NCBI GenBank assembly: GCA_019636345.1
Contig: JAHBXQ010000001.1
Coordinates: forward strand, 310,001 to 374,000
Source of the DNA: Pirellulales bacterium
Lineage (GTDB): Bacteria > Planctomycetota > Planctomycetia > Pirellulales > Lacipirellulaceae
Length of the DNA: 64,000 nt
Direction of reading: 5' to 3'
The translations under genes were made by a program, and so were the position numbers. Shown in pieces: positions 17,555 to 36,900 of the stretch. Below the pieces are notes generated by a model that saw only the letters and a list, made by a program, of their open reading frames with translations, did no database searches and was not told where the DNA came from. The number at the start of each line of letters is the position of its first letter. Positions within the stretch are counted from its first letter, which is position 1.

Positions 17555-17558
17555 CTTT

Positions 17559-19739: not shown

Positions 19740-19746
19740 AGGGTTA

Positions 19747-19891: not shown

Positions 19892-19898
19892 GAACAAG

Positions 19899-20078
19899 AT
19901 GAGACAGCAGGTTCTGAACGCCCCGAAGAATCCAAGTGACTTGGCCGAGGGCTCCGGTCGGTTATTAGTCACCGTAGAGGGCGATGGAGCCATAACAGCG
20001 TTGCACGCCATTGGCTGCGGGCGAACCGCCGCCGAAGTAGGAGCAAAGTGCCGGAAGGCGTCCGCCATCGAAGGATGA
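19899..20078 (+). CDS. Small protein upstream of the 20082 gene
   Basis: 59 aa: an N-terminal polar segment then GRLLVTVEGDGAITALHAIGCG and GRTAAEVGAKCRKAS. ATG 19899 has GAGGAGG in good position, which is the main reason to accept it. The stop is 3 bp before the TTG of the next gene, so the two are probably cotranscribed and coupled. The segment TAAEVGAKCRKASAI could be a small helix-turn-helix but this is weak. No family recognised. Confidence 0.55.
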   Translation: MRQQVLNAPKNPSDLAEGSGRLLVTVEGDGAITALHAIGCGRTAAEVGAKCRKASAIEG

Positions 20079-20081
20079 TGA

Positions 20082-21477: not shown

Positions 21478-21777
21478 ATGTCCGCCCGCCGTCCTGCCAC
21501 TGGCAAGAAAACGCCGCCCCCAAAACTCCCCTGTGACGCCGCCACCTGGAAGCGGGTGGCAGAGCGGCTCGCTCTTTCGCCGCAGCAGAAGCGGATCGTC
21601 GAGTTGATCCTCTGCGGCAAACAGGACCGCGATATCGCCGAGACCCTGGGGCTTACGGTTCCTACGGTGCGGACCTACCTGACGCGGGTCTTCGCGCGGG
21701 TCGGCGTCACCGACCGCATGGACCTCGTGCTCCAGGTTTTCGCACTGGCCGTAGAAGAGGCCGCGGTCCGCAAGTGA
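21478..21777 (+). CDS. LuxR-type helix-turn-helix protein
   Basis: 99 aa. After a short proline/lysine-rich start, the rest is a LuxR/GerE DNA-binding domain: LALSPQQKRIVELILCGKQ, DRDIAETLGLTVPTVRTYL, TRVFARVGVTDRMDLVLQVF. No receiver or ligand-binding domain is present, so it is a stand-alone DNA-binding unit. ATG 21478 is chosen because the family starts close to it; a longer frame to 21235 has unlikely sequence. It stands alone, 230 bp before the PEP-CTERM gene and in the same direction, and could regulate it. Confidence 0.8.
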   Translation: MSARRPATGKKTPPPKLPCDAATWKRVAERLALSPQQKRIVELILCGKQDRDIAETLGLTVPTVRTYLTRVFARVGVTDRMDLVLQVFALAVEEAAVRK

Positions 21778-22004
21778 CATTGCCAGCAATGACACGTGAG
21801 TGATGTCATCATTCGCGATGGCTTGCCGGGTCGCTCACGTTGATACAGACTCAGCGCTTCCAACTGACCGTCGCCACAGCAAAGACAACGAAAAAAGTCG
21901 GCCCTGCTGCCAGATGTGTTAACGTGGGGACTATCCCAGCGCTAATATTCACGGTGAGCCATCACCACTACGATGTGAACATCGATGAACGGGAGTAACA
22001 TCTC

Positions 22005-22697
22005 ATGGATAACGCCAAACTAGTGTTGCTGTACGTACCTGCATTATTGTTTGCTGTTTGTTGGGTCGAGCCGGCTTTGGCGCAGAATATCGACTCCGAA
22101 GCAATTGAGTGGGTGGTGTTCCCTAACTGGTCACCCGGTGACCGTTCGGGGCAAGGTAGCTCCAGCGAGTTAACGGTAAATGCTTCATTCGACTTATTGT
22201 CGGGAGCATTCCTGAGTGGCACTCCGTTCGCTATGAGTAACGGGCTCGCCACTAATCCTGTAGGAAGTGGCCAAAACACGTTTACGCTTCTTTATGAATT
22301 TGTGAACCTAGGTGGCCTTCCGGCAGAGGGGATTTTTCAGATTGGTGATCTTGAGCCCGGGTCGTCAATCGTGTTCACGGGACTTGTCGGGGGAGTTGAG
22401 ACCGCCGTTGACTGGTCAGTTGACATCTTTGAGGTCAATGGCCTCTCAGTCCCACTTCCTACGTGGAACGACGCAACGAATACGCTGTTTGGAAATGTCA
22501 CATCGAGTTCAGCAATTTCGACACAAGCAAGATTGCAAACAGATATTGCCTTAGACGCCGTACGTCTCGACGTTGTAAGTGGTGCTGGGGATGGTATGGT
22601 CATCCGAACCGGTACGGTGCCAATCCCAGAGCCAACTTCACTCACGCTGATTTTCATTGGCTTTCTAGGCATGAGCATGCGACATCGCTCTGCATAG
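22005..22697 (+). CDS. PEP-CTERM secreted protein
   Basis: 230 aa with a Sec signal peptide (VLLYVPALLFAVCWVEPALA, cleavage before QN). The middle is a Gly/Ser/Thr/Asn-rich extracellular beta domain. It ends with the sorting signal PEPTSLTLIFIGFLG and a short basic tail, the PEP-CTERM pattern that is processed by an exosortase and is typical of planctomycete surface or exported proteins. GGGAG precedes the ATG. The gene is visibly richer in A/T than the genes around it, which fits acquisition from elsewhere. Its function on a mobile element is unknown. Confidence 0.85.
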   Translation: MDNAKLVLLYVPALLFAVCWVEPALAQNIDSEAIEWVVFPNWSPGDRSGQGSSSELTVNASFDLLSGAFLSGTPFAMSNGLATNPVGSGQNTFTLLYEFVNLGGLPAEGIFQIGDLEPGSSIVFTGLVGGVETAVDWSVDIFEVNGLSVPLPTWNDATNTLFGNVTSSSAISTQARLQTDIALDAVRLDVVSGAGDGMVIRTGTVPIPEPTSLTLIFIGFLGMSMRHRSA

Positions 22698-22920
22698 GAT
22701 GCACTCATCGACGTGCTGTCAGAACGTGCATTAGTGAGCCGGAAACTCTCCCGCTCCTAACCCGTTTTCGGAAAGTCTTTAACGTCGAGGGCCATAATCC
22801 TCTGCGTTTTCTGGGGGTAACATCATCGCGACGCGTCATTTCGCGAGATTCAGTTCTTGAAGAGTGCCGCATATTCCTGCTACTTGTGGGGGTACACCCG
22901 CGTACGAGTTGAGCAGAAAG

Positions 22921-22980
22921 GGTTGAGGCTCCGGCGGCGTGCAGCCAAATTCCATAACCTCAAGGAAAGAGAACCTCAAG
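22921..22980. repeat. 60-bp repeat, copy 1
   Basis: Starts GGTTGAGGCTCCGGCGGCG and ends AGAGAACCTCAAG; nearly identical to 24338-24397 (only a few substitutions). Contains TTGAGG/CCTCAA inverted repeats. Lies between the PEP-CTERM gene and the zinc-ribbon gene, in a 380-bp gap with no gene. A second inverted repeat, AAAGAAGG/CCTTCTTT, is at 23024-23046. Confidence 0.85.
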
Positions 22981-23077
22981 CCACCTGCGAAACGAAAATG
23001 TGGCGTGAAAGGGTTGGTTTGTCAAAGAAGGCGCTAGTCCTTCTTTCCCTGACTGTTCTCCGTAAGTCGTGTACGAC

Positions 23078-23482
23078 TCACCCCACAAAAGGCTCCTCCC
23101 CGCACCCCGGACACGACAGGCGCTGCTGCTGCTGGCGATACGCCGCTTCGAGACGCTCTTGCAGCCGCCGGTCGTCGCGGAGGTAGCCGTAGAACTTGCC
23201 GCACTGGGAGCAGACGACCCTCGGCGGACGCTGGGAGTCGTCGATGCGCCAGCTCCCGACCAGCCCGCCCTGTTCATTGAAAGCTTGCGGCGTGTGGTCG
23301 CATGACTCCGCCGCTTCTGAGCTTTCGCGCGGCGGCGTAGGCGGTCTCTGCCAAGGCGGCTCCGACGGTCCCTCTAGCAAGTCGCACGCGCCGCAGCGCG
23401 GACACGAGTCGAGACCGACGGGGCTGTAGAACTTCGCCGTGCAGCGGTGACAAGCGTGATAGACCATGTTCGGTTCTTGCAT
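23078..23482 (-). CDS. Zinc-ribbon protein
   Basis: 134 aa with cysteine pairs that suggest two or three zinc ribbons: CHRCTAKFYS with CPRCGACDLL near the N-terminus, then VVCSQCGKFYGYL with CPGCGEEP at the C-terminus. The linker is proline/serine-rich. ATG 23482 has GGAGGA upstream, so the longer frame to 23623 is not used. Such small proteins usually bind nucleic acids or act as adaptors; no more specific call is possible. It is 62 bp downstream of an HTH gene on the same strand. Confidence 0.75.
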   Translation of the reverse strand: MQEPNMVYHACHRCTAKFYSPVGLDSCPRCGACDLLEGPSEPPWQRPPTPPRESSEAAESCDHTPQAFNEQGGLVGSWRIDDSQRPPRVVCSQCGKFYGYLRDDRRLQERLEAAYRQQQQRLSCPGCGEEPFVG

Positions 23483-23544
23483 CGTCTGAGTTCCTCCGGT
23501 CGTTGCCCGAATACTCGCTCGGCGGCGAACGGCCTGCGCCGTGC

Positions 23545-23829
23545 TTACGCCAGGTCGAGCAGTGAGCTGTGAATGTTTGCGGAGCAAGGCTTCGCCTCCG
23601 GCTTGAGCCGCCGCTCCTCCCACGCGAGCACGTCGGTGAGCCTTGCGTACCGAATCCGCCCCCGCCGCTCATACGGCAACTCTCCCGACTCCATCGCCTC
23701 GACCACGTTCTCGCGCCGCATCCGCTGCAACTTGCGGATCTGCTCGACCGTGAGCCAACGCGGCAAACCTTCCCCGTCCGCCTTCGCGGGCGGCTGAGCG
23801 TGGTTCGCGTTGTGCTTTGAGCTACGCAT
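23545..23829 (-). CDS. Small helix-turn-helix (excisionase/MerR-like) protein
   Basis: 94 aa when started at ATG 23829. The core GLPRWLTVEQIRKLQRMRRENVVEAMESGELPYERRGRIRYARLTDVLAWEERRLK matches the architecture of winged HTH_17/excisionase proteins, with a recognition helix and a basic wing. The upstream extension to 23982 is low-complexity. It could be a recombination directionality factor for the tyrosine integrase at the far end, or a local regulator of the zinc-ribbon gene. Confidence 0.65.
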   Translation of the reverse strand: MRSSKHNANHAQPPAKADGEGLPRWLTVEQIRKLQRMRRENVVEAMESGELPYERRGRIRYARLTDVLAWEERRLKPEAKPCSANIHSSLLDLA

Positions 23830-24337
23830 CAACTCGGGCGCCGTCTTCTCAACAAGGAGTCTTGCCAAAGGCTTCTCGCCTGCCGTCGCAGCGTTTCGTC
23901 CGTCGGGGCTCACCTCAGGGGCCCCCGGCGGACGAAACGCGAAAGACGGCCAGGCCGTCATCGAGCCACACCGTCTCGCCACCCCCCCCTCCCAACCTGC
24001 CGTTGCAGTGCGAGTCCCGAGGGGCGGCGACCGCAGCTCGCGGCTGATGCAAGACTACTCGCGAGCGACCCCGTCGCCCGTGCTTACCGCCAGGCCGCAT
24101 CGAGCGGCGGCCGAGACCGTGAAAGAGAGCTTTCACACGGCGAATAAAGGCGTTCGCCGAAGGGCTGACGCCTAGCGGAAAATGACGCCCCAGAGCGCCG
24201 ACATCCGCCTAAACAGATGAGCTACAACGACTTGCAACCCAAAACAAGAATGCTCTTGCCGACGCCCGCTGAGCCGCGAAACAGCAACTCTCCTCGGGTC
24301 GAGCGCCACGCCGAGGTCGTAGGGGGCGAAGCGAAAA
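23830..24337. other. Intergenic stretch, no gene seen
   Basis: About 500 bp without a convincing gene. Frames are arginine/alanine/proline-rich in all readings. The right end borders the second copy of the 60-bp repeat. Confidence 0.4.
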
Positions 24338-24397
24338 GGTTGAGGCTCCGGCGGCGTGCAGCCAAATTCCAGAACCTCAAGGGAAGAGAACCTCAGG
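24338..24397. repeat. 60-bp repeat, copy 2
   Basis: Nearly identical to 22921-22980. It overlaps the stop codon of ardC (24393-24395). On the minus strand the TTGAGG...CCTCAA stem is followed by CCTTTTC, so it may serve as a transcription terminator for ardC. Confidence 0.85.
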
Positions 24398-25205
24398 CGA
24401 CCTCACTCACTTCGAGCAACTCGACCGATTCGAGCGACTGAAGAATGAGCGTCGAGACCTTCTGCACCCGTTCGAGCGACTTGGAGAGCATCTCCGCGTC
24501 CCCCTTGTGCGAGCAGATGTAGTCGGCCGAGTGCTTCATCGCGTTGGCAAGCCCGGCGGCCCGCGTCACGACATAAGCAACCGACTCGGCCTCCAACTCC
24601 TTGACGCCACGAGAGAGCTGGAGTCGTTCCACCTTCTTGTGAAGCAGCTCGTGCCCCAGCTCGTGGGCCAAGGTGTTGAACTCCTCCGCGGGCGAAAGCC
24701 CTTCCCGTAACCCGATGCGTCCCCCGAGGGAGACACCGTAGGCGTCTGGGAAGAAGTCGTAGAAGACCGCGATGCCAAACGACATCACGACCTGGTGGAG
24801 CCGAGCCAGTAGCTCGCCCGGTTCCCCGGAGAGCCGGTTCGGCTCGGGCATCTCCTCCCCGTCGGTCTGCGAGACGTCGAACACATGGACCGCGCGGAAG
24901 CCAAATACTTCCCGCTCGTCACTCTCGTCCGCGTCTTTCTTGCCGACCATGGGGGCGAGGATGCAGATCCCCTTCTCACCCTTCTTGACGCTCCGCCCGT
25001 GCCGCTTCCAAGCATGGAAGCCCGCCACGAGGGTCGCGTCCGGCTTCTGCCGAGCGATCAGCATGCAGTTCCCGAACGAGTAGTTGTGGAACCGGCTCAT
25101 CGCATCGAGGTACTTTGCGTACTCCTCGGTGCGCCCCTGCTCAAGCTGGCTCGCCAACTCGGCCAGGGCCTGGTCGCTCATCTTCTTCGCATCATCTTTC
25201 TTCAT
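24393..25205 (-). CDS. ardC: ArdC-type antirestriction protein with metallopeptidase domain
   Basis: 270 aa. The N-terminal ArdC domain (FHNYSFGNCMLIARQKPDAT, then AWKRHGRSVKKGEKGICILAP) is a ssDNA-binding module. The C-terminal half holds an IrrE/ImmA-like zinc peptidase motif, NTLAHELGHELLH (HExxH). ArdC proteins protect incoming plasmid DNA from host restriction during conjugative entry. ATG 25205 has AAAGGAG upstream, lying in an inverted repeat. On an element that also encodes a full type I restriction system, it would guard the DNA on arrival in a new host while the element's own methylase accumulates. Symbol given by family resemblance. Confidence 0.9.
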   Translation of the reverse strand: MKKDDAKKMSDQALAELASQLEQGRTEEYAKYLDAMSRFHNYSFGNCMLIARQKPDATLVAGFHAWKRHGRSVKKGEKGICILAPMVGKKDADESDEREVFGFRAVHVFDVSQTDGEEMPEPNRLSGEPGELLARLHQVVMSFGIAVFYDFFPDAYGVSLGGRIGLREGLSPAEEFNTLAHELGHELLHKKVERLQLSRGVKELEAESVAYVVTRAAGLANAMKHSADYICSHKGDAEMLSKSLERVQKVSTLILQSLESVELLEVSEVA

Positions 25206-25623
25206 CGCAAGTGCTCCTTTCTCATTGAGCCGACAGACTCAACGAAAACGAGTAAGGAAAGAGCCCGTCGGCGGCGTTCGCCTGGCCTGAGGGCACAAGA
25301 GGTCAAGGGGAAGCCTTGGGCCGCAGGCCCAAGCAGCAGCGAGACCCCTCTCGACAGAGAGATAGGGCCGAGCGGCCCTTGACCCTTGTGGCACGATGGG
25401 CCAGACGCCGGAGACGGACGTCAGAGAGAACCTTCTGAGCGAACGCTCAGAACCTTCGAAAGCTAGCTAGGTGCTGCACGCCGCCAGCCTCGTGCAATCG
25501 CCATCGGTCGGCGACTCGGCGAGACTCGCCAGCGGTGTCGGTTCTACTCGCAACAAGAAAATGGAAGCGGGACGATCAGCCCACAACCTGCAACCACGGC
25601 GGAAGGCTAGCAGCTTCATCGAG
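25206..25623. promoter_or_regulatory. Hairpin-rich ardC leader/intergenic region
   Basis: No gene seen. TCCTTTCTC (25215-25223) can pair with GAGTAAGGA (25250-25258) with one mismatch, with TTGAG/CTCAA inside; the first arm contains the complement of the ardC ribosome-binding site. Further on, GGTCAAGGG (25301) pairs with CCCTTGACC (25376-25384) and encloses a perfect 8-bp stem CTTGGGCC/GGCCCAAG (25315, 25326). Confidence 0.5.
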
Positions 25624-26031
25624 CTACTCAACTTCCTCCCGCTCCCCAGGGGATGCGGAAGCAGTTGAAAAGAGTTCAGCCAACACCAGGGCGGCCGCGT
25701 GGTCGGCGTCCTTGGTGGGCACAGGGAGTGAAGCGTTTACTCGCCGCCGCTCTCGCCAAAGCTCGGCGAGCGTTGTGAGCAGTCCCCGCACCACGGTGCT
25801 CCGGTTGACCGGCAGCCCGGTCCGCCGCCGGATGGCGGGCACGATCTCATAGCCCAGCAACTCATCCAGCTCGGGCGGGATCGCGAACTCACGACGCACG
25901 TTGCACGGCTTGCTCCTCGTGGGAGACTCGGCAGGCGGCGATGACGGCGGCGCCACGCAAGCACGCGCCGCATGCAGCAGGTCGGAAGCCACGGCGCTCG
26001 ACGGCGTCCCATTCGAAAGACCCTTGGCCAT
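25624..26031 (-). CDS. Small protein downstream of parA, probable partition partner
   Basis: 135 aa; 9 bp downstream of parA on the same strand. The first 45 residues are low-complexity (Ala/Pro/Ser). The central segment RREFAIPPELDELLGYEIVPAIRRRTGLPVNRSTVVRGLLTTLAELW resembles a ribbon-helix-helix or similar DNA-binding fold with a following helix. ParA operons commonly encode such a centromere-binding partner (ParB, ParG or ParR type). ATG 26031 follows a GGGG run. No ParB-type domain is recognised; the call rests mainly on position. Confidence 0.6.
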   Translation of the reverse strand: MAKGLSNGTPSSAVASDLLHAARACVAPPSSPPAESPTRSKPCNVRREFAIPPELDELLGYEIVPAIRRRTGLPVNRSTVVRGLLTTLAELWRERRRVNASLPVPTKDADHAAALVLAELFSTASASPGEREEVE

Positions 26032-26040
26032 ACGCACCCC

Positions 26041-26991
26041 CTAGTTCAGCACTTTAAGTTTGGCGGGGGCGTTGACCTCCAAAGCGGGCAGCAGGTCAAC
26101 CGCAGGACGCACCAGCGAACGGACGTGCTCTGGGATGCGGAAAGCGAGCGGGTCGAGCTGGCCCGCCAGGAACTGCGGGCGGTTCGCGACGCGGTGCTCG
26201 ACCTCGGCAGCCAGGCGGCGATACTGCCGCACGATTAGGTGCCCCCGACACTCGTAACGCTGGAAGACGGTCTTGCCCATCGCCGATGACTCGGGCAACA
26301 CGGCCGCCTGCGAGATCGACGTGTCGAGTTCCCTCCCCGGCAGCGCCGAAGCGACGAGCCGTTCGACTTCCTCGCGGCTGCGACGGACCCGGCGGTCGAC
26401 GCACGAGAGCAGGATGCCGAGCACTTCGAGCTTGTGGTTGCGGTAGCGACGCACGTCGTTGATGTCGCGGAACGCCTCGGTCAGCCCCTCGACCGACAGG
26501 TGATGGGGGAAGGCCGAGAGCAGAATCCACTCCGCCTCGGAGTACGCGGCGATGGTGGCGATCGAGCGGGCCGCCGGGGGCGTGTCGAGCAGGATGTAGT
26601 CGTACGACTTGCGGGCGTCGCGCAGCGGCTGCTCCAAGAGCCGCGTCGTGTCGACGAACTTGGAGACCCGTTTCTCGAGCTCCGCCAGTTCGGTGCGTGC
26701 GGCGACCAGCTCCACCCCATCGGGCATCCCCTCACGGATGGCGAGCGACGCCAAGTCGTCTTCGCCGCAGAGCAGTTCCAGCGTTCCGGCGTAGCTCGCC
26801 GGGGGGACGCCCAGGTGCTTGGTGGCGCCCGCGTGCGGGTCGAGGTCGATAAGCAGCACCATCCGGCCCCGCTCCCCGAGCGCCGCCGCCAGGTGACAGG
26901 CGTTGGTGCTCTTGCCGACGCCCCCTTTTTGGTTGCCGATAACGATGGTGGTCGCCAACGGGTCGTGAAGTATCGAGTCGTGCTCTCCCAT
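26041..26991 (-). CDS. parA: ParA-family partition ATPase
   Basis: 316 aa. Deviant Walker A motif IGNQKGGVGKSTNACHLA with the two signature lysines, Walker A' DLDPHAGATKHLG, and a later YDYILLDTPPAA motif. These ATPases distribute low-copy plasmids, or stabilise integrative elements when excised, with a DNA-binding partner. ATG 26991 has AAGGAG upstream; that site lies in a short inverted repeat (26999-27018). It is divergent from the Rep-like gene, a typical plasmid replication-partition layout, so the element probably has a replicating form. The C-terminus, from about 250, is not conserved with the Walker core. Confidence 0.94.
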   Translation of the reverse strand: MGEHDSILHDPLATTIVIGNQKGGVGKSTNACHLAAALGERGRMVLLIDLDPHAGATKHLGVPPASYAGTLELLCGEDDLASLAIREGMPDGVELVAARTELAELEKRVSKFVDTTRLLEQPLRDARKSYDYILLDTPPAARSIATIAAYSEAEWILLSAFPHHLSVEGLTEAFRDINDVRRYRNHKLEVLGILLSCVDRRVRRSREEVERLVASALPGRELDTSISQAAVLPESSAMGKTVFQRYECRGHLIVRQYRRLAAEVEHRVANRPQFLAGQLDPLAFRIPEHVRSLVRPAVDLLPALEVNAPAKLKVLN

Positions 26992-27377
26992 ACTGGTTCT
27001 CCTTCAATGCCTGAGGAGTGAGTAGCACGACCGCGGGCCGGATGGCAACAGGCGAAACGGAACCCCGGACCGCTGGTCGCGACGGGGGTCCGGAGTCCCG
27101 GAGCAAGTTGACCTCTTGCGCTGGGATGCGAGACGTTCTTCAATCGTCCGCAAGAGACTGCGCATCAAAGAAAAAGACGCGACGCCCTTGGGGACGTCGC
27201 GTGCTGATGCATTTTGAAGGAAACGAAACAGAGCAGGCCCGAGCGAGCGGGTAGGAGCCGTCGAGCGCTCCCGCTGCGTGGTCCTCAGTTGACGCTTCGA
27301 CGTTCGCACATTTTGCGGGGCGTCGTCAAGCAGCGACCGCACGTCCGCGCCGACTCTGTTCTGTGCAAGGAGCAGAG
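26992..27377. promoter_or_regulatory. Divergent parA/rep region with terminator-like hairpins; origin candidate
   Basis: No gene seen. CTCCTTCA (26999-27006) can pair with TGAGGAG (27012-27018) across the parA ribosome-binding site. ACGCGACG (27177-27184) and CGTCGCGT (27195-27202) form a stem, with an A-rich stretch on the left, so on the minus strand it is followed by a T run (see separate entry). CCGGACC/GGTCCGG lies around 27064-27095. I see no clear iterons, but a replication origin would be expected here. Confidence 0.45.
27165..27215 (-). terminator. Probable rho-independent terminator on the minus strand
   Basis: On the minus strand the stem ACGCGACG...CGTCGCGT is followed by CTTTTTCTTT. 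It would end a minus-strand transcript that starts in the rep leader, which could be an antisense RNA to the rep mRNA. Confidence 0.55.
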
Positions 27378-28640
27378 ATGAATAAATCAACCAACCGCGG
27401 CCAATTCCGTCCCGCCCCGTGGATGCAGGAAGGCCGAATCGCCGGGGGCTTCGCCTTCATCGACTCGGCCGCCTTGGCCAACGTCTGGCGAAGCTACGAG
27501 CGAAACGACCTGAAACTCGTGGATGTCCGCTCGTGGCTGGCGCTGCACGAGATGATGGCGCGACGCCGAGCCGCGACCGAGCGACGCAGACCCACCTACT
27601 CGGACCTGGAACTGGCCCGGCTCACCGGGACCCCGGAAGCCCGGAGAGCCAGCAGCTCCCGCAGGCGGCTCATTCATTGTGGGTCGATTGAGTGGAGCGA
27701 ATCGACGGTTCGCTTCCGACGGCGCGAGGGCGAAGTCATTGGCGGCCGCGCCCGCATTCCCGTGCCGCGACGAGTGCTGCGTCATCTCGCTCGGCAAGGG
27801 ACGGCGGCCGACGTGGCGACCGTTATCGGGCACGCCGCGCGCTGCCTCTACTATCAACGTGACGCGAAGCAGCTTCGGTCGGGCGGCGCTTGCACGGCGT
27901 CATGGGTCGCCCAACAGTTCGGCGTTGGCGAGCGTTCGGTGCATCGCAGCCGTCAGAGGCTCATCGAGCTAGGCTGGCTCAGGCCGGTCGAGGATGGCCG
28001 ACAAGGGGGCCGTCTGGGGGCGCGGTTTGTCATCGACCTCGCCTGGCGACGGCCCGACCGAGGTCACGAAACGGCAGCCCAACGCGAGGGAAATGACGCC
28101 GATTCGGCAGCCCCTACTATTCACCATGAACCCTCTTTGAGGATTCAAAGACCAGAACTCGATGCTGGTGTTTCTACGAAACCGATTCTGAGAAACGTGG
28201 TCCCTGCGGACCTCTCCGACCCGAGGCGACTCGAAGCGCTGTTTGAAGAAGCGGGGAAGGCGGGCTTGGTCAGTCGCACCGAGGCGGGAAAGCTCTCGTT
28301 CTTCGCCGCCGCCGAGCGGGCGAAGCGTTGCGGCGCCGAGAACCCGTGCGGGTTCTTCGCGGCCATGGTGCGGCGAGGGCTGTGGCGGCACATCGCGGGC
28401 GTGGACGAGGACCGGGCCCGTAAACAGATCGCAGCGGCCTACGCGCCGCTCGACGAAGGTCCGCGCCGGAATCAGCGACAGCCTTGGAAGGGAATGGAAG
28501 GCTCCCCGGCACGCGTGGCGCCGGGGGCAGATGCCGACAGCGTCGGAATCGGCTACAATCGGGGCTTCCCGAGCGGCGACCGCTCCGGAACAGTGTTCAG
28601 CGAGTTGAAGAAAGGATGGGCCCGTAGCTCAGTCGGTTAG
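27378..28640 (+). CDS. Plasmid replication initiator-like protein (Rep)
   Basis: 420 aa, starting at ATG 27378 with AAGGAG six bases upstream. The middle has a winged-helix layout: TYSDLELARLTGTPEARRA and later CTASWVAQQFGVGERSVHRSRQRLIELGWL, each a helix-turn-helix typical of plasmid Rep proteins and replication-linked regulators. The second half contains PADLSDPRRLEALFEEAGK and a C-terminal helical segment. The last codons (AWARSSVG region) read into the tRNA gene that begins at 28618, and the stop TAG falls in its D-loop, so the C-terminus may be truncated by the junction. Rep is inferred from fold and location. Confidence 0.72.
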   Translation: MNKSTNRGQFRPAPWMQEGRIAGGFAFIDSAALANVWRSYERNDLKLVDVRSWLALHEMMARRRAATERRRPTYSDLELARLTGTPEARRASSSRRRLIHCGSIEWSESTVRFRRREGEVIGGRARIPVPRRVLRHLARQGTAADVATVIGHAARCLYYQRDAKQLRSGGACTASWVAQQFGVGERSVHRSRQRLIELGWLRPVEDGRQGGRLGARFVIDLAWRRPDRGHETAAQREGNDADSAAPTIHHEPSLRIQRPELDAGVSTKPILRNVVPADLSDPRRLEALFEEAGKAGLVSRTEAGKLSFFAAAERAKRCGAENPCGFFAAMVRRGLWRHIAGVDEDRARKQIAAAYAPLDEGPRRNQRQPWKGMEGSPARVAPGADADSVGIGYNRGFPSGDRSGTVFSELKKGWARSSVG

Positions 28641-28976
28641 AGCAGGGGACTTAACTGCAAGGAGCCTAAACGACCAACCGGTCGCATGGCTTGAAGCAAC
28701 TGGGTTGCCTTGGCCTTCCCTTGGGAGGGCTTTGGTAGAATTCGTCAAATTCGGGGAAGGCTAAGTCGTAGCGTCGTCTTGGATGCCGCAGCGATAGGCT
28801 AATCCCGAGCCAAGCCCGCCGTCACACGCAAGGTGTGGGGGTGGGAAGGTGTAGAGACTGTACGGCGAACTCGTAAAGAGAAGAGACAGTCCAGACCACA
28901 AACCCGAAAGGGGCGGCGAAAGCCGTAGCTGGTAAGCATAATCCCTTGGTCGGGGGTTCGAGTCCCTCCGGGCCTA
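28618..28976 (+). tRNA. tRNA-Ile2(CAU) interrupted by a group I intron
   Basis: Exon 1 is 28618-28651 and exon 2 is 28937-28976. Joined, they give a full cloverleaf: acceptor GGGCCCG with CGGGCCU (G1-U72 wobble, A73), anticodon stem GGGGA with UCCCU, loop CUCAUAA (anticodon CAU at 34-36), T stem GGGGG/CCCTC. The body closely resembles bacterial tRNA-Ile2 (for example GCAGGnGACTCATAAT). C4-G69 and C5-G68, known identity features for lysidine synthase TilS, are present. It lacks the three G-C pairs of initiator tRNA, so it is not tRNA-fMet. No CCA is encoded. Splicing must occur between U33 and C34, before the anticodon. Confidence 0.88.
28652..28936 (+). ncRNA. Group I intron (tRNA-type, IC3-like)
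   Basis: 285 nt, ending in the obligatory G at 28936. Conserved core elements are visible: TCAAATTCGGGGAAGGCTAAG-type P4-P3 strand (28745-28765), CCGAGCCAAGC (28805-28815), the AAGGTGTAGAGACTGTACGGC strand (28846-28866) and GACAGTCCAGACC (28885-28897). P7 is GACTGT (28856-28861) with ACAGTC (28886-28891). The same core occurs in the Azoarcus tRNA-Ile intron, a self-splicing group I ribozyme. No homing endonuclease is encoded. P1 pairing to the 5' exon is not worked out with confidence; GGUC at 28680-28683 can pair with the last four exon bases GACU. Confidence 0.85.
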
Positions 28977-29120
28977 CCTTCCTTCCCTCTTGGCGAGAGG
29001 CTTTAGCGGTGTCGCGTACCTGCAACGGTGTCCTGGACTCGCGGCCACCTCAGCAAGTTGGCGGTTCGGCAAAGACGCCGAAGCTGGTCCAACTTCATTC
29101 AGCTGAAGTGATAGTGAACT

Positions 29121-29144
29121 CGCATCGGTGTCCTCACCGATGCG
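29121..29144. terminator. Perfect 9-bp hairpin downstream of the P-type ATPase gene
   Basis: CGCATCGGT (29121-29129) and ACCGATGCG (29136-29144) flank a 6-nt loop, 46 bp past the ATPase stop. No T run follows, so it may stabilise the 3' end rather than terminate. Confidence 0.4.
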
Positions 29145-29189
29145 GCGAAGTCACCTGCTCCAGCAGCAGGGAATACTATGAGTCCTTTC

Positions 29190-31640
29190 TCAGCGTTCTG
29201 ATTGGTAAGCGAGTAATCGCAGCGCGTTAAAGACAACCACTAGCGTGCTGCCTTCGTGGAGGGCCACTGCAGGACCAATGTTGAGCCCGAATATCGTCGC
29301 AGGCACGAGGAACGCGACCATGCCGAGACTCATCCATATATTCTGACGGATGATTCGCCGAGTGGCCCGACTGAGTCCGATTGCTAGCGGGAGGTGTTCG
29401 AGGTTGTCGGCCATCAGGGCGACATCGGCTGTTTCGAGAGCCACGTCGCTACCGGCCGCCCCCATCGAGATGCCTACCGACGCGGATGCCATGGCGGGGG
29501 CGTCGTTGACTCCGTCTCCCACCATTGCGACACCCCCTTCGCCTCGCAGGCGCTCGATCTCGGCGACCTTGTCGTCGGGCATCAGGTCGCCACGGGATTC
29601 GTCGACCCCTACCTCTTTAGCGACGGCATCGGCGACTCGCTGGTTGTCGCCCGAGATCATGATCATCCGTTTGATGCCCAGTTCCCGCAGTCGGAGCAGC
29701 GTGCGTTTGGACGCTTCGCGCGGCTTGTCCATCAGCCCGATGACGCCCAGGTAACGGTCGCCGCGACGCACGATCATCGTGGTGCGGCCATCGCTCTCCA
29801 GCGATTCGACCACTCGACGGATGGCGTCAGGAACTGGAGCGCCACCGACTTCGCTGAACAGCTCGTCTTTACCTATGTAAACAGCCTCCCCTTCGACATT
29901 CGCATGAATGCCACGACCTGTGACGCTTTGCAAGTCAGTGGCGTTTGCAACTCGTGACTCGTCAATTCTCGATCGCCCGTCACGAACCACCGCTTTCGCC
30001 AAGGGGTGCTTGCTGAGGCTTTCCACAGCAATGGCTGTCAGCAACAAGTCACTTGCGTCAACGCCTTCGGCTGGTCGGACATCGGTTACTTTTGGCTCTC
30101 CCGCGGTCAACGTGCCGGTTTTGTCGAAAGCGATCGCGTCGAGGCTGCCAAGACTTTCCAGCGGACCGCCGCCCTTAACCAGGACGCCGCCTCGCGCAGC
30201 TCGCGCTACGCCGCTCAGCACCGCACTTGGCGTTGCGATCGCCAATGCGCACGGACTGGCGGCGACGAGGACCGCCATCGCCCGGTAGAACGATTCGCTG
30301 AATGACTCGTCCAGCACAAGAGGCGCGAACAAGAGTAGCAGGACGATAGCGATAACCGACGGCACAAAGTAGCGTTCAAACCGCTTGGTGAACTTTTGAG
30401 TCGGTGATACCCGTGTTTCCGCTTCACTCACCATCGTTACCACACGGGCAAGTGTATTCTCAGCCGCCGTTTTGGTGACTTGAACTTCGATGGCTCCCGC
30501 TTGATTGATCGTGCCTGCGAACACCCGATGCTCGGCGGCAACCGACTCGGGATCGGCGGCGGCGTCATCACGATCGCCCACTGGTTGCTTGTCCACGGGC
30601 ACACTCTCGCCGGTAATAGGCGCTTGATCGACGCTCGTTTCGCCTTCGATGACGAATCCATCCGCAGGAATGCGTTCATCGGGCTTCACGATCACAATGT
30701 CTTCGACTTGAAGCTCTTCGACGGCGATTTCTGTTTCTTGTCCATTTCTACGGACGCGCGCTGTTCGTGGGGCCAGCTCCGAAAGGGCTTCGATCGCCCG
30801 TTTGGCTCGACCCATCGCGTAGCCTTCCAGGGCATGACCGATGCTGAACAGAAAGAGCAGCAAGGCGCCTTCCGCCCAGGCCCCCAAAGCTGCGGCGCCT
30901 GCGGCTGCGATTAGCATCAGGAAATCGATCTCGAACTTGCCGCTACGAATCTTCTCGATTGCCTCTTTGGCCGTGAAGTAGCCGCCAAAGAAGTACGCAA
31001 TGATGAACGTAGTAACGGGAATCCATTCATCTACTCCAGTGAATGTTTTAAGCAGCCAGCCAATCAGCAAGAATAGACCGCAGAGAATTGCAAAGAATAG
31101 CTCGGTCTTCTGTCCGAAGATGCCACCGTGAGCGTGGTCGTGATCTGCGTGATCGTGGTCCTCTTGATGGCCTTCATCGAATCGTTCTCCAGCGATCGCT
31201 GGCTGCGACCTCGACCAGTTGCCAAGCGCCTCGCGGATGACGCTTTCGTTTGCGATGGTTCGATCGAATTCAACTCGCACGCCACCTTCTACTGACACGG
31301 CCGCTTCCAGTACGCCATTGACTCGCGCCAGACGCGACTCGATGGCACTCGCCCGTCTTGCGTGCATCGGTTGAAGTTCTGTGTGGTAGTGGCCGAATCG
31401 CTGTCCCAGCTCCAGTCCGATCTGTTGAGACAGGTCTCGGACTTCAGCCAGCGACAATACGTTGGGGTTGTAGTGGATACAGAACTCGCCATTGGTGTCC
31501 TCTGATGATTCGACCACATGACTTGAGTCGATTCCCTTTTTTGCATCTAGCAATCTTCTCAGGCGATCAACGCAAGCGTCCTGTGAATCGGGCACGTCTG
31601 GCAGGACGAAATCAATTTTAAGTCGAGCTTTCTGTGGCAT
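29190..31640 (-). CDS. P1B-type heavy-metal transporting ATPase (P1B-4-like)
   Basis: 816-aa ATP-driven metal exporter of the inner membrane. The N-terminus (1-155) lacks CxxC metal-binding motifs but has a His/Asp-rich stretch (EDHDHADHDHAHGG). Core motifs follow: TGESVP, phosphorylation site DKTGTLT, GDGVNDAPAM, and the transmembrane metal motif SPCALAIATP. The last helix carries ALHEGSTLVVVFNALRLL. The SPC plus HEG(G/S) pair is the signature of the P1B-4 group (Co, Zn or Fe exporters such as CoaT/CtpD), rather than the CPC of Cu or Cd/Zn pumps. Precise ion unknown. It is at the left edge of the metal block, convergent with the intron-bearing tRNA. Confidence 0.93.
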   Translation of the reverse strand: MPQKARLKIDFVLPDVPDSQDACVDRLRRLLDAKKGIDSSHVVESSEDTNGEFCIHYNPNVLSLAEVRDLSQQIGLELGQRFGHYHTELQPMHARRASAIESRLARVNGVLEAAVSVEGGVRVEFDRTIANESVIREALGNWSRSQPAIAGERFDEGHQEDHDHADHDHAHGGIFGQKTELFFAILCGLFLLIGWLLKTFTGVDEWIPVTTFIIAYFFGGYFTAKEAIEKIRSGKFEIDFLMLIAAAGAAALGAWAEGALLLFLFSIGHALEGYAMGRAKRAIEALSELAPRTARVRRNGQETEIAVEELQVEDIVIVKPDERIPADGFVIEGETSVDQAPITGESVPVDKQPVGDRDDAAADPESVAAEHRVFAGTINQAGAIEVQVTKTAAENTLARVVTMVSEAETRVSPTQKFTKRFERYFVPSVIAIVLLLLFAPLVLDESFSESFYRAMAVLVAASPCALAIATPSAVLSGVARAARGGVLVKGGGPLESLGSLDAIAFDKTGTLTAGEPKVTDVRPAEGVDASDLLLTAIAVESLSKHPLAKAVVRDGRSRIDESRVANATDLQSVTGRGIHANVEGEAVYIGKDELFSEVGGAPVPDAIRRVVESLESDGRTTMIVRRGDRYLGVIGLMDKPREASKRTLLRLRELGIKRMIMISGDNQRVADAVAKEVGVDESRGDLMPDDKVAEIERLRGEGGVAMVGDGVNDAPAMASASVGISMGAAGSDVALETADVALMADNLEHLPLAIGLSRATRRIIRQNIWMSLGMVAFLVPATIFGLNIGPAVALHEGSTLVVVFNALRLLAYQSER

Positions 31641-31738
31641 CTAGCGTTCCTGCATTACGTGTTCTTGAGACTACCGCATCCGCCAGTTCCCCAAGGACTC
31701 TCAAGAAAGTGGGCCAATCACGATGTCTCTATTACGTA

Positions 31739-33205
31739 TCATCTACCAAGCACCGTTAGGTAGCGTCTCTCGGGTGACTCGATAAGCATCAAAACGGGTT
31801 TGTCTCTAGGTAGTTCCTCCGTCACTCGCAGAAAATCGTCCATGTTGCGGATCGCGCGGTCATTGAGTCGCAGAACAACCATCCCAGCAGCGATCCCGTC
31901 CTTATAGGCTACTCCTGCGATCTTCACATTCGTGATGAGCACTCCCGTTGTATCCGGTTGATAGCCCAGCAGCTCTGTGGTGTCAGGATGCAGCTCATCG
32001 ACACACAGCCCGAACCTTTTGCAAAATTCCTGCGGCGGTTCATGTTGGTGAGCCTGCTGAACATGTCTCGAGGGATGTTGACCTTCAGGCCGATGGTCCA
32101 TAACGATGCTTACGTCTTCTGCGTGTCCATCGCGAAAAACGGTCATCCGATGCGGTTCGCCTGGTGCAGGTTCGTCAACGACCTGTCGCAACGGAGATTG
32201 CTCGTCGATCGGCTGGTCGTCGAAATGCGTAATCAGGTCGCCCACCTGCAACTTTGCATTCGCGGCTGGCGTGTTGTCCGCCACGTACATTACGTAGAGG
32301 CCACCCGATTTGGGCAGCTCTAACTGACGGGCCATCGCGGGGGAGATAGGCTGTATGTCGCAGCCCATGTAGGCGCCTTCTGGGGCACCCTGTTGCATCA
32401 GCTTATCCGCAGCTTGTTTAGCCGCCTTAATTGGGATCGCTAGTCCAATGCCTTGGAACCCGTCATCGACGCCGATGCTGCCTGCGAGCATTCCCACAAT
32501 CTTCCCCTGCAAGTTCGCAAGTGCCCCACCCGAGCTGCCTGGATTGGAAGAGGCGTCGCTTTGAATCAACGGCGTGGAGTTGAGAGGGGTGTGGCGTTCG
32601 GTTGCCGCTACTGTGCCCGTACTAACCGACCTCTCCAGACCGTAAGGATTGCCGACTGAGACAACCCAATCTCCCAATTGCAAGGCATCGGAATTCCCAA
32701 GGCTTGCGGCAGGCAGTTCTGCACCGGCTTCTATCCTCAGAACGGCCACATCGCGACCAGAGTCGGAAAGGACCTCGACAGGCTCGAATCGGCGACCATC
32801 CGGCAGGGTGACAAAGATGACATCTGCACCGGCAACCACGTGATTGCAAGTTAGGATGACACCAGAGCGGTCGATAATGATCCCAGAACCACGTTCATCG
32901 CCTGATACATAAGGAAAATCTGGCGAGGAGTGCGTTTGCCAAATATCTTGGTTTCTTTGCCGTTGTTCATGCAGTCGCCATTGGGGTGTTTCACGCGGCC
33001 CTCGCAGTGTCTCGACAAGAACGACACTAGGCGATACCAGCTCTGCTGCGCTGCGAAATTCTTGCGACAGCTCTTTTGCGTGGGACACTTTGCTATTCTC
33101 GTGCTGACTATTAGCTTCCTCCGCCCTTGTATAGTGGGAGAGGAGCACAGTCGTCATCATAGCGGATAACAGCGGCACCGAAGCATTAACCGTCAAGTAG
33201 TTCAT
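31739..33205 (-). CDS. HtrA/DegP-like periplasmic serine protease with PDZ domains
   Basis: About 488 aa. A signal peptide or anchor (NASVPLLSAMMTTVLLSHYTRAEE) is followed by a trypsin-like domain with all catalytic residues: His in LTCNHVVAGA, Asp in SGRDVAVLRI, Ser in NPGSSGGALAN. Two PDZ domains follow (roughly residues 285-370 and 400-485). The linker between them is His-rich. HtrA proteases degrade or refold damaged envelope proteins. Placed between the P-type ATPase and RND genes, it fits protection against metal-damaged periplasmic proteins. ATG 33205 is chosen over TTG 33214. Confidence 0.92.
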   Translation of the reverse strand: MNYLTVNASVPLLSAMMTTVLLSHYTRAEEANSQHENSKVSHAKELSQEFRSAAELVSPSVVLVETLRGPRETPQWRLHEQRQRNQDIWQTHSSPDFPYVSGDERGSGIIIDRSGVILTCNHVVAGADVIFVTLPDGRRFEPVEVLSDSGRDVAVLRIEAGAELPAASLGNSDALQLGDWVVSVGNPYGLERSVSTGTVAATERHTPLNSTPLIQSDASSNPGSSGGALANLQGKIVGMLAGSIGVDDGFQGIGLAIPIKAAKQAADKLMQQGAPEGAYMGCDIQPISPAMARQLELPKSGGLYVMYVADNTPAANAKLQVGDLITHFDDQPIDEQSPLRQVVDEPAPGEPHRMTVFRDGHAEDVSIVMDHRPEGQHPSRHVQQAHQHEPPQEFCKRFGLCVDELHPDTTELLGYQPDTTGVLITNVKIAGVAYKDGIAAGMVVLRLNDRAIRNMDDFLRVTEELPRDKPVLMLIESPERRYLTVLGR

Positions 33206-33327
33206 CGTCGGCAATCCATTTCATTGGGTGAATCAAAAACGGGAAAGCGAGTGCGGCAACGAGCGGGGGGCATCCACCGCAGTCTCGCTCTCCCGCCGTA
33301 GTCGCAAGACCATTGAGTGATATCGAA

Positions 33328-33846
33328 CTAATGATCATGCCCTTCGTGGTCATGGTCATGCTCGATGACCCCTCGCAACTGTTTGCCTGAAACAGAAACG
33401 ACCAACTGGGCTTGGACGCCCTCGTGGTCGAGTTCTTCAGCAAGCTCTGCATCGGACGACACAAACCGTGACGATTGACCTGGGGGATCGCCAGCCTCTG
33501 GGCTCGCAGCCAAAGAGAACTGCTCTGCTTGCCCATCGTGGCTGAGATTGATCGTCAACTCCTTGGTGTCCACGGGAATGGCTTGCTTTCCGGCAGAGTC
33601 TAGGATGTACACGGTGATGGTCCCAGCGTGCTCATCATGCAGGAGTTCGGCGTGGTACTCTTCGTTGCCCAACTCGATGAGAGAGCCGTGGTGTGGGCCC
33701 TCCGTGGGATGTTCGTGCGACTCGCCTGTGGCAGCTGATTTTGACGACTGACCGCCGCTCTGGCCTTGTCCACACCCGCTGAGGGTGACGGCTGCGGCAA
33801 TAATTAAGCACGCGACACTCGCAGAAATGTGAGAATACAAGTTCAT
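33328..33846 (-). CDS. His-rich lipoprotein
   Basis: 172 aa. The N-terminus is a lipoprotein signal: hydrophobic stretch CLIIAAAVTLSGCG with lipobox cysteine (LSGC). The mature part has His-rich ends (ESHEHPTEGPHHGS and EHDHDHEGHDH) around a beta-rich centre (AGTITVYILDSAGKQAIPVD). Such proteins can chelate metal in the periplasm and hand it to the RND pump. Family not recognised. It is next to the RND pump gene and in the same direction. Confidence 0.8.
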   Translation of the reverse strand: MNLYSHISASVACLIIAAAVTLSGCGQGQSGGQSSKSAATGESHEHPTEGPHHGSLIELGNEEYHAELLHDEHAGTITVYILDSAGKQAIPVDTKELTINLSHDGQAEQFSLAASPEAGDPPGQSSRFVSSDAELAEELDHEGVQAQLVVSVSGKQLRGVIEHDHDHEGHDH

Positions 33847-33908
33847 GGCTACTCCTTTTCGTGTTAGTCAACAAATAAAATACTCTGCCCGACATGGGCA
33901 CCCTTGTC

Positions 33909-36900
33909 TCAGCTTTCCTCTTCTTCAGCTACTAGCTCGACTTGCTGCTGGCCGACTTGGACGACTCGCTGTGCGGCCCCGATTCCCAGAGACCAGAACA
34001 GCGCGGGACGCACCAGGAACTCTAGCAGCGTGCTGGTGACCAAACCGCCGATGATGACGGTCGCCACCGGATAGAGGATTTCCTTGCCAGGCTCGCCCGC
34101 TGACAGAGCGAGCGGTATCAGACCAATGCCCGAGGTCAATGCCGTCATTAGCACTGGGGCCAGTCGGTCTTTGCCAGCGCGAACTACCATGTCCCGCGAC
34201 CACGACTCTCCTTCGTACTTGACTAGGTGCAGGTAGTGGTTGATCAGCAAGATGCCGTTGCGGGACGCGATACCGCACAACGAAATGAACCCCACCATGC
34301 TGGCAATGGTGAGCGTCTGGCCGGTGAGGTACAGCGACGCCACGCTGCCAATGAACGCCATAGGCAACGCCACCATGACTTGCAGGGCCAGATTGGCTGA
34401 CCGGAAGAGCTTGTAGAGCACCAAAAACATGGCCACGAGCGAGATGCCGAACAAGATCGCGATCATCCGGGACGCCGACTTCTGGCTCTGAAACTGTCCG
34501 CCGTACTCGACAAAGTACCCAGTGGGCAACTCCGCGACGACGGGCTGAAGCTTTTGCTGGATGTCGCCGACCACATCGACTAGGCCACGACCTGAAACGT
34601 TGCACTGGACGACGATCCGTCGTCGCACTTGCTCACGGTTGATCGTGTTAGGACCAGCGGCCTTGTAGATTCGAGCCACGTCTTCGAGCTTGACCGTGCC
34701 GCCCTGCGGCAATTCGATTCGCAGTCGCCGCAGCGCTTCGACATCCTCCCGAGAATCCTCCCCCAGCCGAACCATCAAGTCGAAAGTGCGTTGACCATCG
34801 AGCACTTCAGAGACGACTTCTCCCTGCATCGCGGTTTCTACAAACTCGTTTACGTCAGCGCGTCGCAGTCCAAACATTCGCAGCTTGTCGCCGTCCGCCT
34901 CAATGCGTAGCTGTGGAATGATGACCTGCTGCTCAACCTGGAGGTCGCGGATGCCTTCGATACCGGAGATCGCACCCCGTATGCCTTCTGCTTGACGACG
35001 CAGTTCATCCAAATCGTCGCCGTAAAGCTTGATGGCGACTTGCGCTTTGACGCCTGACAGCATGTGAGAAATCAGGTGGGCAAGAGGCTGCTCCACAGAT
35101 ACCACGATGCCGGGGATGTCTGCGAGGGCATCGCTCACTTTCTCGATAACCTCCTCTCGCGACCGCTCGGAGTCGGGGCTGACCGTCGCAATGACTTCCG
35201 TGACGTTCACCCCTTCGGCGTGCTCGTCGAGTTCCGCCCGTCCCGTCTTGCGTACAAACGTCTTGAGGTCCTCAAACTCGACAAGTCTCGCTTCGACCTT
35301 CTTTGCGACCTGGTTGGAAGTCGCGAGAGAAGTTCCGGGGGGCAAGAGCACATTGATTTGCACCGCTCCTTCATTGAACGGCGGCAAAAAGTCGCTTTCT
35401 AGTCGGAACATGGCCCAACCGGCGACGGCAGCAGCCGCCAGCGCTAACATCAGCACCATCCACGACAGCCGAAGACTGATTCGGATAACGCCATCAGCAA
35501 CGGCTTTCAGAACCCGCAGCACGAGCCCATCTTTCTCTTCTCCGGAACCGCCTTGATGGCGGAGCAGCCAGTAGCTCAGGACGGGCGTGACCGTCAGGGA
35601 TACCAGCAGCGACGAGACGAGTGAGACGATGTACGAGACGCCCATCGGCCGAAACAACTGGCCTTCCATGCCGGTCAGAGCAAACAAAGGCACGAACACA
35701 AGCACGACGATGAGTGTGCCGTAGACGATGGAGTTGCGGATCTCAACGCTCGCCTGAAACACCACCAACAGCGGGTTCTTCGGCGACTCGGAATGCCGGT
35801 TCTCCCGTAGCCGGCGGAAGATGTTCTCGACGTCAACAATCGCGTCATCGACAAGTTCCCCGATCGCGACGGCCAAACCGCCGAGAGTCATTGTGTTGAC
35901 CGACAGTCCGAACGCCGCAAATACTATCGCCGTGATGGCGATGGAAAGCGGAATCGCCGTGAGCGTGATAAGCGTTGTTCGCAGGTTCATTAGGAAGATG
36001 AAGAGAATGATCACGACCAGCACACCGCCATCGCGGAGTGCTTCAAAGACGTTCTCGATTGCCAGATCGATGAATTCCTTTTGCTGGTACAGCTCCGGCA
36101 TGATGCGGACATCGCCTGGCAGAGAAGGGGCCATTTCTTCTAGGGCCTTGGTCACCTTGTCGGTGACGACTCGAGTGTCGGCTTGGGGCTGCTTAAGGAC
36201 AGTCAAGACGACGGCCGGTCCGCCGTTGATCTGCCCCTCGTCGTCGCGCTGGAAGGCCGCGCTGTCTCCCCGCTTGACCTGCGGCCCTTCGACCACATTG
36301 GCGACTTGCGATAGCGTGACCGATTGGTTGTCACGCTGCTTGAGGACGATGCCCCTGATTTGCTCGACCGTTTTGACACGCCCGAGCGAGCGGACGAGAA
36401 ACTCGTTGGGGCCTTGCTCGTCCAGGTATCCGCCAGCAGTGTTTTGATTGCTCTCTTCGAGCGCTTGCTTCACCTCATGCAGCGTTACGCCGTATCTCAG
36501 CATGAGGTCGGGATCGACCAGAACTTGAAACTGCTTCCGATCGCCCCCCATCACAATGACCTGGGAGACACCCTCAATCGTGAGGAGCCGTTGCCTGACG
36601 ACCCAGTCGGCCAGCGTACGAAGTTCAAGCTGAGTTGTGTCCTCTTCGGCCGTCATCCCGATGATCATGATCTGGCCCATGATCGACGAAATGGGCATCA
36701 ATTGAGGCTTCACATTGGGGGGAAGCCTGTCATTGGCTAACGCCAATCGCTCGGCGACGATCTGCCGGTCGTTGTAGATGTCGGTGCCCCAGTCGAATTC
36801 GACATAGATGACAGACAAGCCAATTCCCGACGACGTGCGTACCGCCTGTACGCCTGTCGCCCCGTTAAGCACAGTTTCAATCGGAAACGTGACGAGCGTT

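Follow-up and report, generated by a model that had tools for sequence, protein, structure and literature searches.

A group I intron splits the element-borne tRNA-Ile2(CAU) gene of a Pirellulales bacterium within the putative crossover sequence of the element's integrase

We analysed a 64,000-nucleotide stretch of a Pirellulales genome (GenBank assembly GCA_019636345.1, contig JAHBXQ010000001.1, forward strand), referred to here as the window. It covers positions 310001-374000 of a 998-kb contig (C1) in a 5.18-Mb assembly (G000) that is 95.9% complete. In this genome an integrative element divides the native gene for tRNA-Ile2(CAU) within its anticodon loop, and the same element carries a full-length tRNA-Ile2(CAU) gene that is itself interrupted at this point by a group I intron. 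The architecture, consisting of a split native gene, the element ends and an intron-bearing spare, is well supported. Taken as a whole it is probably best explained by tRNA-dependent integration of mobilizable or conjugative elements whose spare tRNA is shielded by a self-splicing intron. In its logic the element corresponds to tRNA-dependent integration; what is new is the intron-split spare tRNA. An earlier note on this DNA had described the intron-split tRNA and its place on a mobile element; we confirm that observation, and its interpretation is partly supported. The earlier note overlooked that the host's own tRNA-Ile2 is cut by the same element and that the intron lies exactly in the integrase crossover sequence.

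With introns allowed, ARAGORN reports tRNA(cat) i(35,285) at 28618-28976, which places the split between tRNA positions 33 and 34, just before the anticodon, and it draws the joined exons as a cloverleaf. The intron divides the 7-nt anticodon loop as CT^CATAA. Exon 1 ends in ACT, giving a U before the 5' splice site, and the intron ends in G, both hallmarks of group I introns; the exact splice sites are those implied by the tRNA fold. The Rfam Intron_gpI model matches over its full length at 28707-28916 (45.3 bits, E 3.3e-10 in 801 bases). We aligned the window intron with 32 of 42 relatives of up to 290 nt, near-duplicates excluded. A 52-pair structure that includes the P3/P7 pseudoknot fits these 33 sequences with 96.5% of cells paired, and 39 of its pairs are changed on both sides. 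None of 500 shuffled controls equalled either value (mean of 21.9 two-side-changed pairs), and sliding the structure by 1-3 columns left 32-44% of cells paired and 15-19 two-side-changed pairs. P3 is paired in 97.5% of cells with two-side changes in 5 of 6 pairs, and P7 in 100% with such changes in 2 of 4, values to be read knowing that the structure comes mostly from RNAalifold on the same alignment, and so favours itself, and that P7 was placed by hand. The conserved group I core P3-P8 and the P3/P7 pseudoknot are thus present, and the claims of the earlier note on the gene itself, namely its division before the anticodon, the cloverleaf and a 285-nt group I intron with a terminal G, all hold. 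The intron contains no open reading frame (ORF) of at least 100 aa, which sets it apart from an IStron (a group I intron joined to a transposase). Default ARAGORN and Rfam at its gathering thresholds gave no tRNA or intron match in the window; both miss this copy, and tRNA-Ile2 genes can therefore escape annotation.

Some further features of this locus were observed. Between the 5' domain of the intron (28663-28749) and the Rfam motif LOOT (RF03000) there is a weak match of 18.2 bits (E 0.67; gathering 46.4). The two have GCCUAAAC and GCAUGGC in common, which resembles an 11-nt tetraloop receptor. A promoter scan found no promoter. The 5' exon is entered over 23 nt, on the same strand, by a 425-aa ORF (P0002, 27363..28640, plus strand) that has no family match in Pfam, NCBIfam or PHROGs. 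Phage Fionnbharth has a spare tRNA overlapping the 3' end of an opposite-strand gene (PMC10865867; papers given by PMC number are cited from partial texts).

The native tRNA-Ile2 gene is represented by two orphan halves, each bordered by unrelated sequence (Table 1). In the acceptor stem the native halves form 7/7 pairs together and 5/7 with the halves of the intron copy, which form 7/7 with each other; the strand GGGCCCG of the 5' exon, for example, pairs 7/7 with its own 3' exon and 5/7 with the native 3' half. It follows that the native halves once formed a single gene, distinct from the intron copy. This also ruled out a classic integration that restores the 3' half beside the intron-bearing tRNA, since the half at 49029 pairs fully with the one at C1:305024 and not with the copy. 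The halves are still perfectly complementary in the acceptor stem, and they might in principle yield tRNA by trans-splicing, as archaeal split tRNAs do, leaving the intron copy dispensable. We regard this as the least probable of the alternatives considered here, because the halves lie 54 kb apart, the element sequence past the core does not continue the tRNA and, to our knowledge, no trans-spliced bacterial tRNA has been described.

Among the 45 above-cut-off tRNA matches in the assembly, which include tRNAs for all 20 amino acids, the CAU tRNAs are two tRNA-Met genes and no others; we take one to be the elongator and the other the initiator from their features. A second functional tRNA-Ile2 was ruled out on these grounds. 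No tRNA-Ile2 besides the intron copy was found in this assembly, and the intact second gene that the earlier note had named as making the copy unnecessary was not found there. Because the element cut the host's own tRNA-Ile2, the intron copy would be needed, and we infer that the spare is required for survival after integration, tRNA-Ile2 being presumably essential.

The element measures 53,972 bp from core to core (CTCATAA at C1:305055 and C1:359027), and both of its ends are now placed, in agreement with the earlier assignment of the tRNA to mobile DNA. Its G+C content is 59.8%, compared with 65.7 and 66.7% in the flanks. The flanks are ordinary chromosome, with recG and a Pfam 'Planctomycete extracellular' match on the left and genes for RNase Y, ymdB, tilS, exonuclease VII and dxs on the right. 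The stretch shared by the element site attP and the chromosomal site attB is GACTCATAA, 9 bp only; the tRNA is not continued at either end, and ARAGORN found no tRNA gene at either element end (L002, L005). A tyrosine integrase (P0001) starts close to attR. It matches a PHROG integrase family (E 4.4e-17) and an NCBIfam tyrosine recombinase model (E 4.8e-4, far below that model's cut-off). Counting both strands, 94 kb contain 10 copies of the motif TGTAGTG, 6 of which lie within 150 bp of the two cores; the repeats are presumably arm-type sites.

P0001 is kept at 58-65% identity in three relatives (G011, G002 and G052), which adjoin complete tRNA-Arg genes, a second G011 copy standing in tandem with the first. 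Integrases of this family may thus usually rebuild their target, with tRNA-Arg genes as putative targets. At two loci (L084 and L087, in G011 and G095) no more than about 130 bp separate an integrase relative from a complete tRNA-Arg(CCG) or tRNA-Gly(TCC) gene; the integrase is on the tRNA 5' side, and AATTGTAGTGCA...GAAATGTAGTGCA repeats stand between integrase and tRNA.

The element encodes a relaxase and a coupling protein, and no type IV secretion gene was matched among the element proteins scanned, a subset of its ORFs; we therefore call it mobilizable. With this relaxase and coupling protein it is not a temperate phage, and the name 'lysogeny' does not apply. It is presumably mobile today. 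Since tRNA genes are short repeats, and since a contig from the same genus (G025) ends inside tRNA-Ile2, the halves could be misjoined repeats in a chimeric assembly with no element integrated. This is very improbable: the region lies on one 998-kb contig, the integrase, the repeats and the G+C steps agree at the ends, and the layout recurs in two other assemblies.

Table 1 Features of the element, the tRNA-Ile2 genes and their surroundings. Positions are those of the window; C1 marks contig positions.
Feature	Position	Strand	Details
Exon 1 of element-borne replacement tRNA-Ile2(CAU)	28618..28651	+	34 nt; ARAGORN with introns allowed
Group I intron	28652..28936	+	285 nt, terminal G, between tRNA positions 33/34; Rfam Intron_gpI, 33-sequence alignment
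Exon 2 of replacement tRNA-Ile2	28937..28976	+	40 nt; ARAGORN with introns allowed
Orphan 5' half of native tRNA-Ile2	C1:305024		followed by unrelated sequence; search with tRNA
Orphan 3' half of native tRNA-Ile2	49029..49068 (C1:359029)	+	unrelated sequence before; search with tRNA
attL core	C1:305055-305061		4.9 kb left of window
attR core CTCATAA	49027..49033	+	anticodon-loop overlap
In-window part of element	1..49033	.	core positions and G+C
Tyrosine integrase (start at M21 of P0001)	47693..48904	-	start 123 bp from attR core
Two putative arm-type integrase sites (TGTAGTG)	48955..48984	+	
Four more putative arm-type TGTAGTG sites	C1:305140-305209		left element end
tilS (lysidine synthetase)	61441..62598	+	host chromosome, outside element; TIGR02432 178.5 bits, above cut-off; Pfam
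TrwC-type relaxase with helicase domain	13393..16218	-	Pfam TrwC 3e-75
TrwB-type coupling protein	10667..13396	-	Pfam TrwB_AAD_bind 1.7e-35
ArdC-like anti-restriction protein	24393..25205	-	Pfam ArdcN 5.4e-10
ParA-like partition ATPase	26041..26991	-	
Type I restriction-modification genes	2204..7689	-	hsdM 2204-3670, hsdR 4768-7689; hsdS-like gene crosses left edge of window
Cargo	29190..46661	-	heavy-metal P-type ATPase, HtrA-like protease, RND pump, HlyD and OEP partners, ABC transporter parts, HMA protein

We found the same layout in two further genomes, both metagenome-assembled (MAGs). In an Ideonella MAG (G320) the cores, at C12:280045 and 348598, are 68,553 bp apart, and the intron copy begins at 338556, 58.5 kb inside the element and directly after CagX (TrbG-like) and TrbI genes. 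The spliced copy equals the joined native gene over 76 nt, the intron being the only difference. In a Perlucidibaca MAG (G330) the cores, at C5:125136 and 137042, are 11,906 bp apart and enclose RND efflux genes and an intron copy that begins at 135265; here the native gene and the copy differ in the acceptor stem, and each pairs 7/7 with itself. Both elements have a tyrosine integrase with a Pfam Arm-DNA-bind_3 domain at attL and TGTAGCC repeats at both ends, and the two integrases are 69% identical over 421 residues. The integrase of the window element resembles these at chance level only (E 0.67, 0.88, 1.3), so that at least two integrase lineages are involved. A further integrase lies beside an orphan half in G337, an Opitutaceae genome, and its tblastn similarity to the window integrase is also at chance level (E 0.3 and 0.6). 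When 13 mobile-element proteins were compared with 63 loci by tblastn, the only matches were G320's and G330's own loci (L168, L179), and a sharing of these elements' genes by other intron loci was rejected. A search for the G320 integrase within its order at E 1e-60 returned 1 of 399 genomes, G320 itself, and the search for relatives was also without yield in IMG/VR (for the two integrases) and in plasmids (for the G330 one).

These layouts suggest how the element might live with its target. The anticodon loop is a common site of strand exchange by tyrosine integrases, and we infer that strands are exchanged there in this case too. The host's one tRNA-Ile2(CAU) gene would offer the attachment site in its anticodon loop. 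Because attP and attB share only 9 bp, integration would destroy the host gene, which would be rebuilt at neither end. The element would instead supply its own complete tRNA-Ile2, interrupted at 33/34 by the group I intron; the transcript is predicted to splice itself, after which TilS would modify C34 and AUA codons could be read. The core contains CTCATAA in all three elements and is divided by the intron as CT^CATAA, the two parts standing 285, 245 and 277 nt apart in G000, G320 and G330, respectively, and the spliced copy matches the native gene around the core over 34, 76 and 32 bp. At the DNA level the intron would thus split the 7-bp crossover sequence and leave the RNA product unchanged, and because that sequence is split, the element's own integrase would be kept from using the spare as an attB. 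Without the intron, the spare and the native gene would be roughly equal targets, with the possible consequences of a cut spare and of tandem or self integration. From the position of the intron we lean, by a modest margin of confidence, toward this shielding role.

A scan for the intron form made use of the fact that an intact gene has CATAA after T33, whereas an intron at 33/34 puts its last G there. The pattern GCATAANNNYYYGGTCGNNGGTTCRA matched 53 stretches in genome_contigs and 5 in IMG/VR, and a matching 5' exon lies upstream in 49 of these 58 (44 and 5, respectively). Going by record titles, the genome_contigs stretches include Burkholderiales, gammaproteobacteria, Patescibacteria, planctomycetes, Chloroflexi (Anaerolineales), Verrucomicrobiota (Opitutaceae) and Armatimonadota. 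The earlier note's statement that few such introns are known outside proteobacteria and cyanobacteria does not stand, given the records from Patescibacteria, planctomycetes, Chloroflexi, Verrucomicrobiota and Armatimonadota. We sought intronless tRNA-Ile2 halves in the genomes of 50 of the 53 stretches (L159, L174 and L193 were left out). G334, G336 and G342 were rejected as intron genomes, leaving 47 and G000, 48 in all; the 5' exon was not resolved in 5 of the 47 (G301, G308, G322, G323 and G341). Three stretches that lack a 5' exon (L183, L185 and L191) proved to be 3' halves that have been displaced, in genomes that also have an intact gene without an intron, and the L174 match is probably due to chance. 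The full split-gene layout on one contig was present in 3 of the 48 genomes (G000, G320 and G330). An orphan half lies on another contig than the intron copy in G316 (Burkholderiales) and G337, and a truncated native gene lies about 240 bp from the intron copy in G327. In this last genome, a Nitrosomonadales MAG, the native tRNA-Ile2 is cut in the T-arm, upstream of the intron copy (C2:770031-770576, L245), perhaps at a different integration point.

Several findings weigh against the reading of the intron as a shield within tRNA-dependent integration. No orphan half was found in 42 of the 48 intron-type genomes with patterns that would miss other D-loop or core variants, so the intron usually occurs outside the split-gene arrangement and may be a passenger. 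The layout was sought only in intron-bearing genomes, a choice that passes over elements with intronless spares. The spare tRNAs of actinophages are not described as intron-bearing in the available text of PMC10865867, so that an intron is not generally needed. G320 and G330 share one integrase lineage and are not fully independent, and both are metagenome-assembled. A syntenic empty site was sought for G000 and for G330 and was not found. The Rfam score of the intron (45.3 bits) lies below the gathering score of 50, which is a library threshold and not itself a defining feature of group I introns. Finally, P0001 has no Pfam match and was modelled poorly by AlphaFold (mean pLDDT 53.7).

The first three of these points bear on the chief alternative, in which the replacement tRNA was captured from a lineage that already bore the intron; the spare would be needed and the intron would have no protective role. 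This is in keeping with the many intron-type genomes that lack an orphan native half, with the actinophage spares that work although not described as intron-bearing, and with an intron-bearing gene in a Roseimaritima MAG whose exons are identical to the window copy over 74 nt and whose intron is 86% identical at gap-free positions. It keeps weight because only intron-bearing genomes were examined for the layout and because actinophages manage without an intron. The intron form is rare, however, occurring in 1 of 392 genomes of the phylum sample (G000 itself) and in the 53 stretches of genome_contigs. Furthermore, its presence in the split-gene layout three times, across two integrase lineages, would have to be put down to coincidence if the intron were of no help, an argument weakened by our having chosen intron genomes first. 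On balance we consider a passenger intron unlikely, though a serious contender.

The intron might also mainly guard the spare from other elements that use tRNA-Ile2 as attB, and not from the element's own integrase. Three integrase types occur at split or orphan tRNA-Ile2 genes, and similar protection was proposed by Randau and Soll for archaea and in the Caldiarchaeum case (PMC3293823). The intron, however, sits in the core of the element's own integrase, and both roles can hold together. We judge exclusion of other elements as the main role to be less likely still than a passenger intron. Of the three accounts, shielding from the element's own integrase as part of tRNA-dependent integration is the one that we prefer.

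The spare copy looks acquired. In the family survey 41 of 43 genomes match the tRNA gene, and among the matches listed G000 alone extends over more than 3 bases of the intron; the 41 CAU tRNAs listed, from 44 loci of which several are one gene counted twice, have no intron. A single base separates the spliced copy from the gene of G002, a member of another genus, whereas the joined native gene has the GGTCCGG type that is widespread in the family. The nearest intron, in a Pirellulales MAG, is 89% identical at gap-free positions; with the Roseimaritima gene this supplies the planctomycete relatives that the earlier note had suggested looking for. At the Roseimaritima locus (G299, L264:4165-4620) an ORF on the opposite strand overlaps the 3' part of the intron-bearing tRNA-Ile2; by eye its start resembles an integrase C-terminus, and the ORF has no Pfam match. 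The G025 contig of the same genus (C158:10000-11508, L113) ends inside an intronless tRNA-Ile2 with a sequence just downstream that by eye is also integrase-C-terminus-like. This contig end hints that tRNA-Ile2 may serve as a hot spot in the lineage.

Like the intron of Azoarcus, the window intron is a small group I intron in the anticodon loop of a tRNA-Ile. The Azoarcus intron follows the anticodon, whereas the window intron precedes it (33/34) and lies on an integrative element. Structures of the Azoarcus tRNA-Ile intron are named in a review of bacterial group I introns (PMC3984707), in the available text of which 'integrase' is absent. The same review (2014) states that all phage introns seen until then were in protein-coding genes. 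Three viral contigs in IMG/VR (L198, of 234 kb, L199 and L200) have a tRNA-Ile2 intron at 33/34; a search of annotated phages and plasmids for the intron gene, at E 1e-10, was without yield. Longer introns of 614-639 nt occupy the same position at L143, L157, L159, L172 and L175, in records named Moranbacteria, Moraniibacteriota or 'bacterium'; they contain an opposite-strand ORF of 121-128 aa that is HNH endonuclease-like by eye.

The closest known systems are those of actinophages. Guerrero-Bustamante and Hatfull (2024, PMC10865867) showed by experiment that one such phage, with a 10-bp core in a tRNA gene, depends for lysogeny on the tRNA that it carries. Cores of 9-11 bp occur among such tRNA-dependent phages, those of the Gordonia phages OneUp and Mollymur at tRNA-Ile2-CAT being 10 and 9 bp, and tyrosine integrases typically exchange strands 6-8 bp apart (PMC10865867). 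Like these phages, the window element combines a tyrosine integrase whose attB lies in a tRNA gene with a short core of about 10 bp, no rebuilding at attL or attR and a tRNA of the same isotype. It differs from them in being one of a set of mobilizable or conjugative elements from other phyla, and in a spare split by a group I intron at the crossover, a term ('group I intron') that does not occur in PMC10865867. The authors of that work speculate that a second plasmid may integrate into a plasmid-borne tRNA gene, which is the very hazard that an intron would remove. In Rhizobium phages a replacement tRNA-Leu lacks the 12-bp att motif, and the authors presume that this avoids (super-)integration into the phage (PMC8631192). 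As in the window element, the replacement tRNA lies inside mobile DNA and would be protected from the element's own integration; unlike the window spare it is simply without the motif, and the word 'intron' does not occur in the available text.

In archaea, tRNA introns have been proposed as protection from integration (PMC3293823, PMC4390854). The Caldiarchaeum tRNA-Thr intron is likewise tied to the integration of an element and was proposed to guard against further integration; that intron was proposed to enter via attP, whereas the window intron lies in an internal full-length copy (PMC3293823). Archaeal introns are removed by a protein endonuclease, in contrast to the group I intron of the window. 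In the open-licence literature, judged by the titles and abstract starts of the matches listed, we found no paper joining a group I intron with an element-borne replacement tRNA; subscription papers fall mostly outside this search.

Our reading would extend tRNA-dependent integration from actinophages to conjugative and mobilizable elements in other phyla. A broader proposal, which we make tentatively and with slightly less than even confidence, is that bacterial group I introns serve as DNA-level shields of att sites, with at least two integrase lineages each arming a replacement tRNA at the crossover. The G320 copies, identical over 76 nt but for the intron, make a simple recombination test possible. 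The persistence of self-splicing introns in tRNA anticodon loops and the role of tRNA introns as guards are questions argued mostly from archaea, in the texts cited. In the present case intron and integrase crossover fall together, and they do so in a gene on which the cell appears to depend. If the proposal is true, it would give a bacterial tRNA intron a beneficial role, a bacterial form of the Randau-Soll hypothesis.

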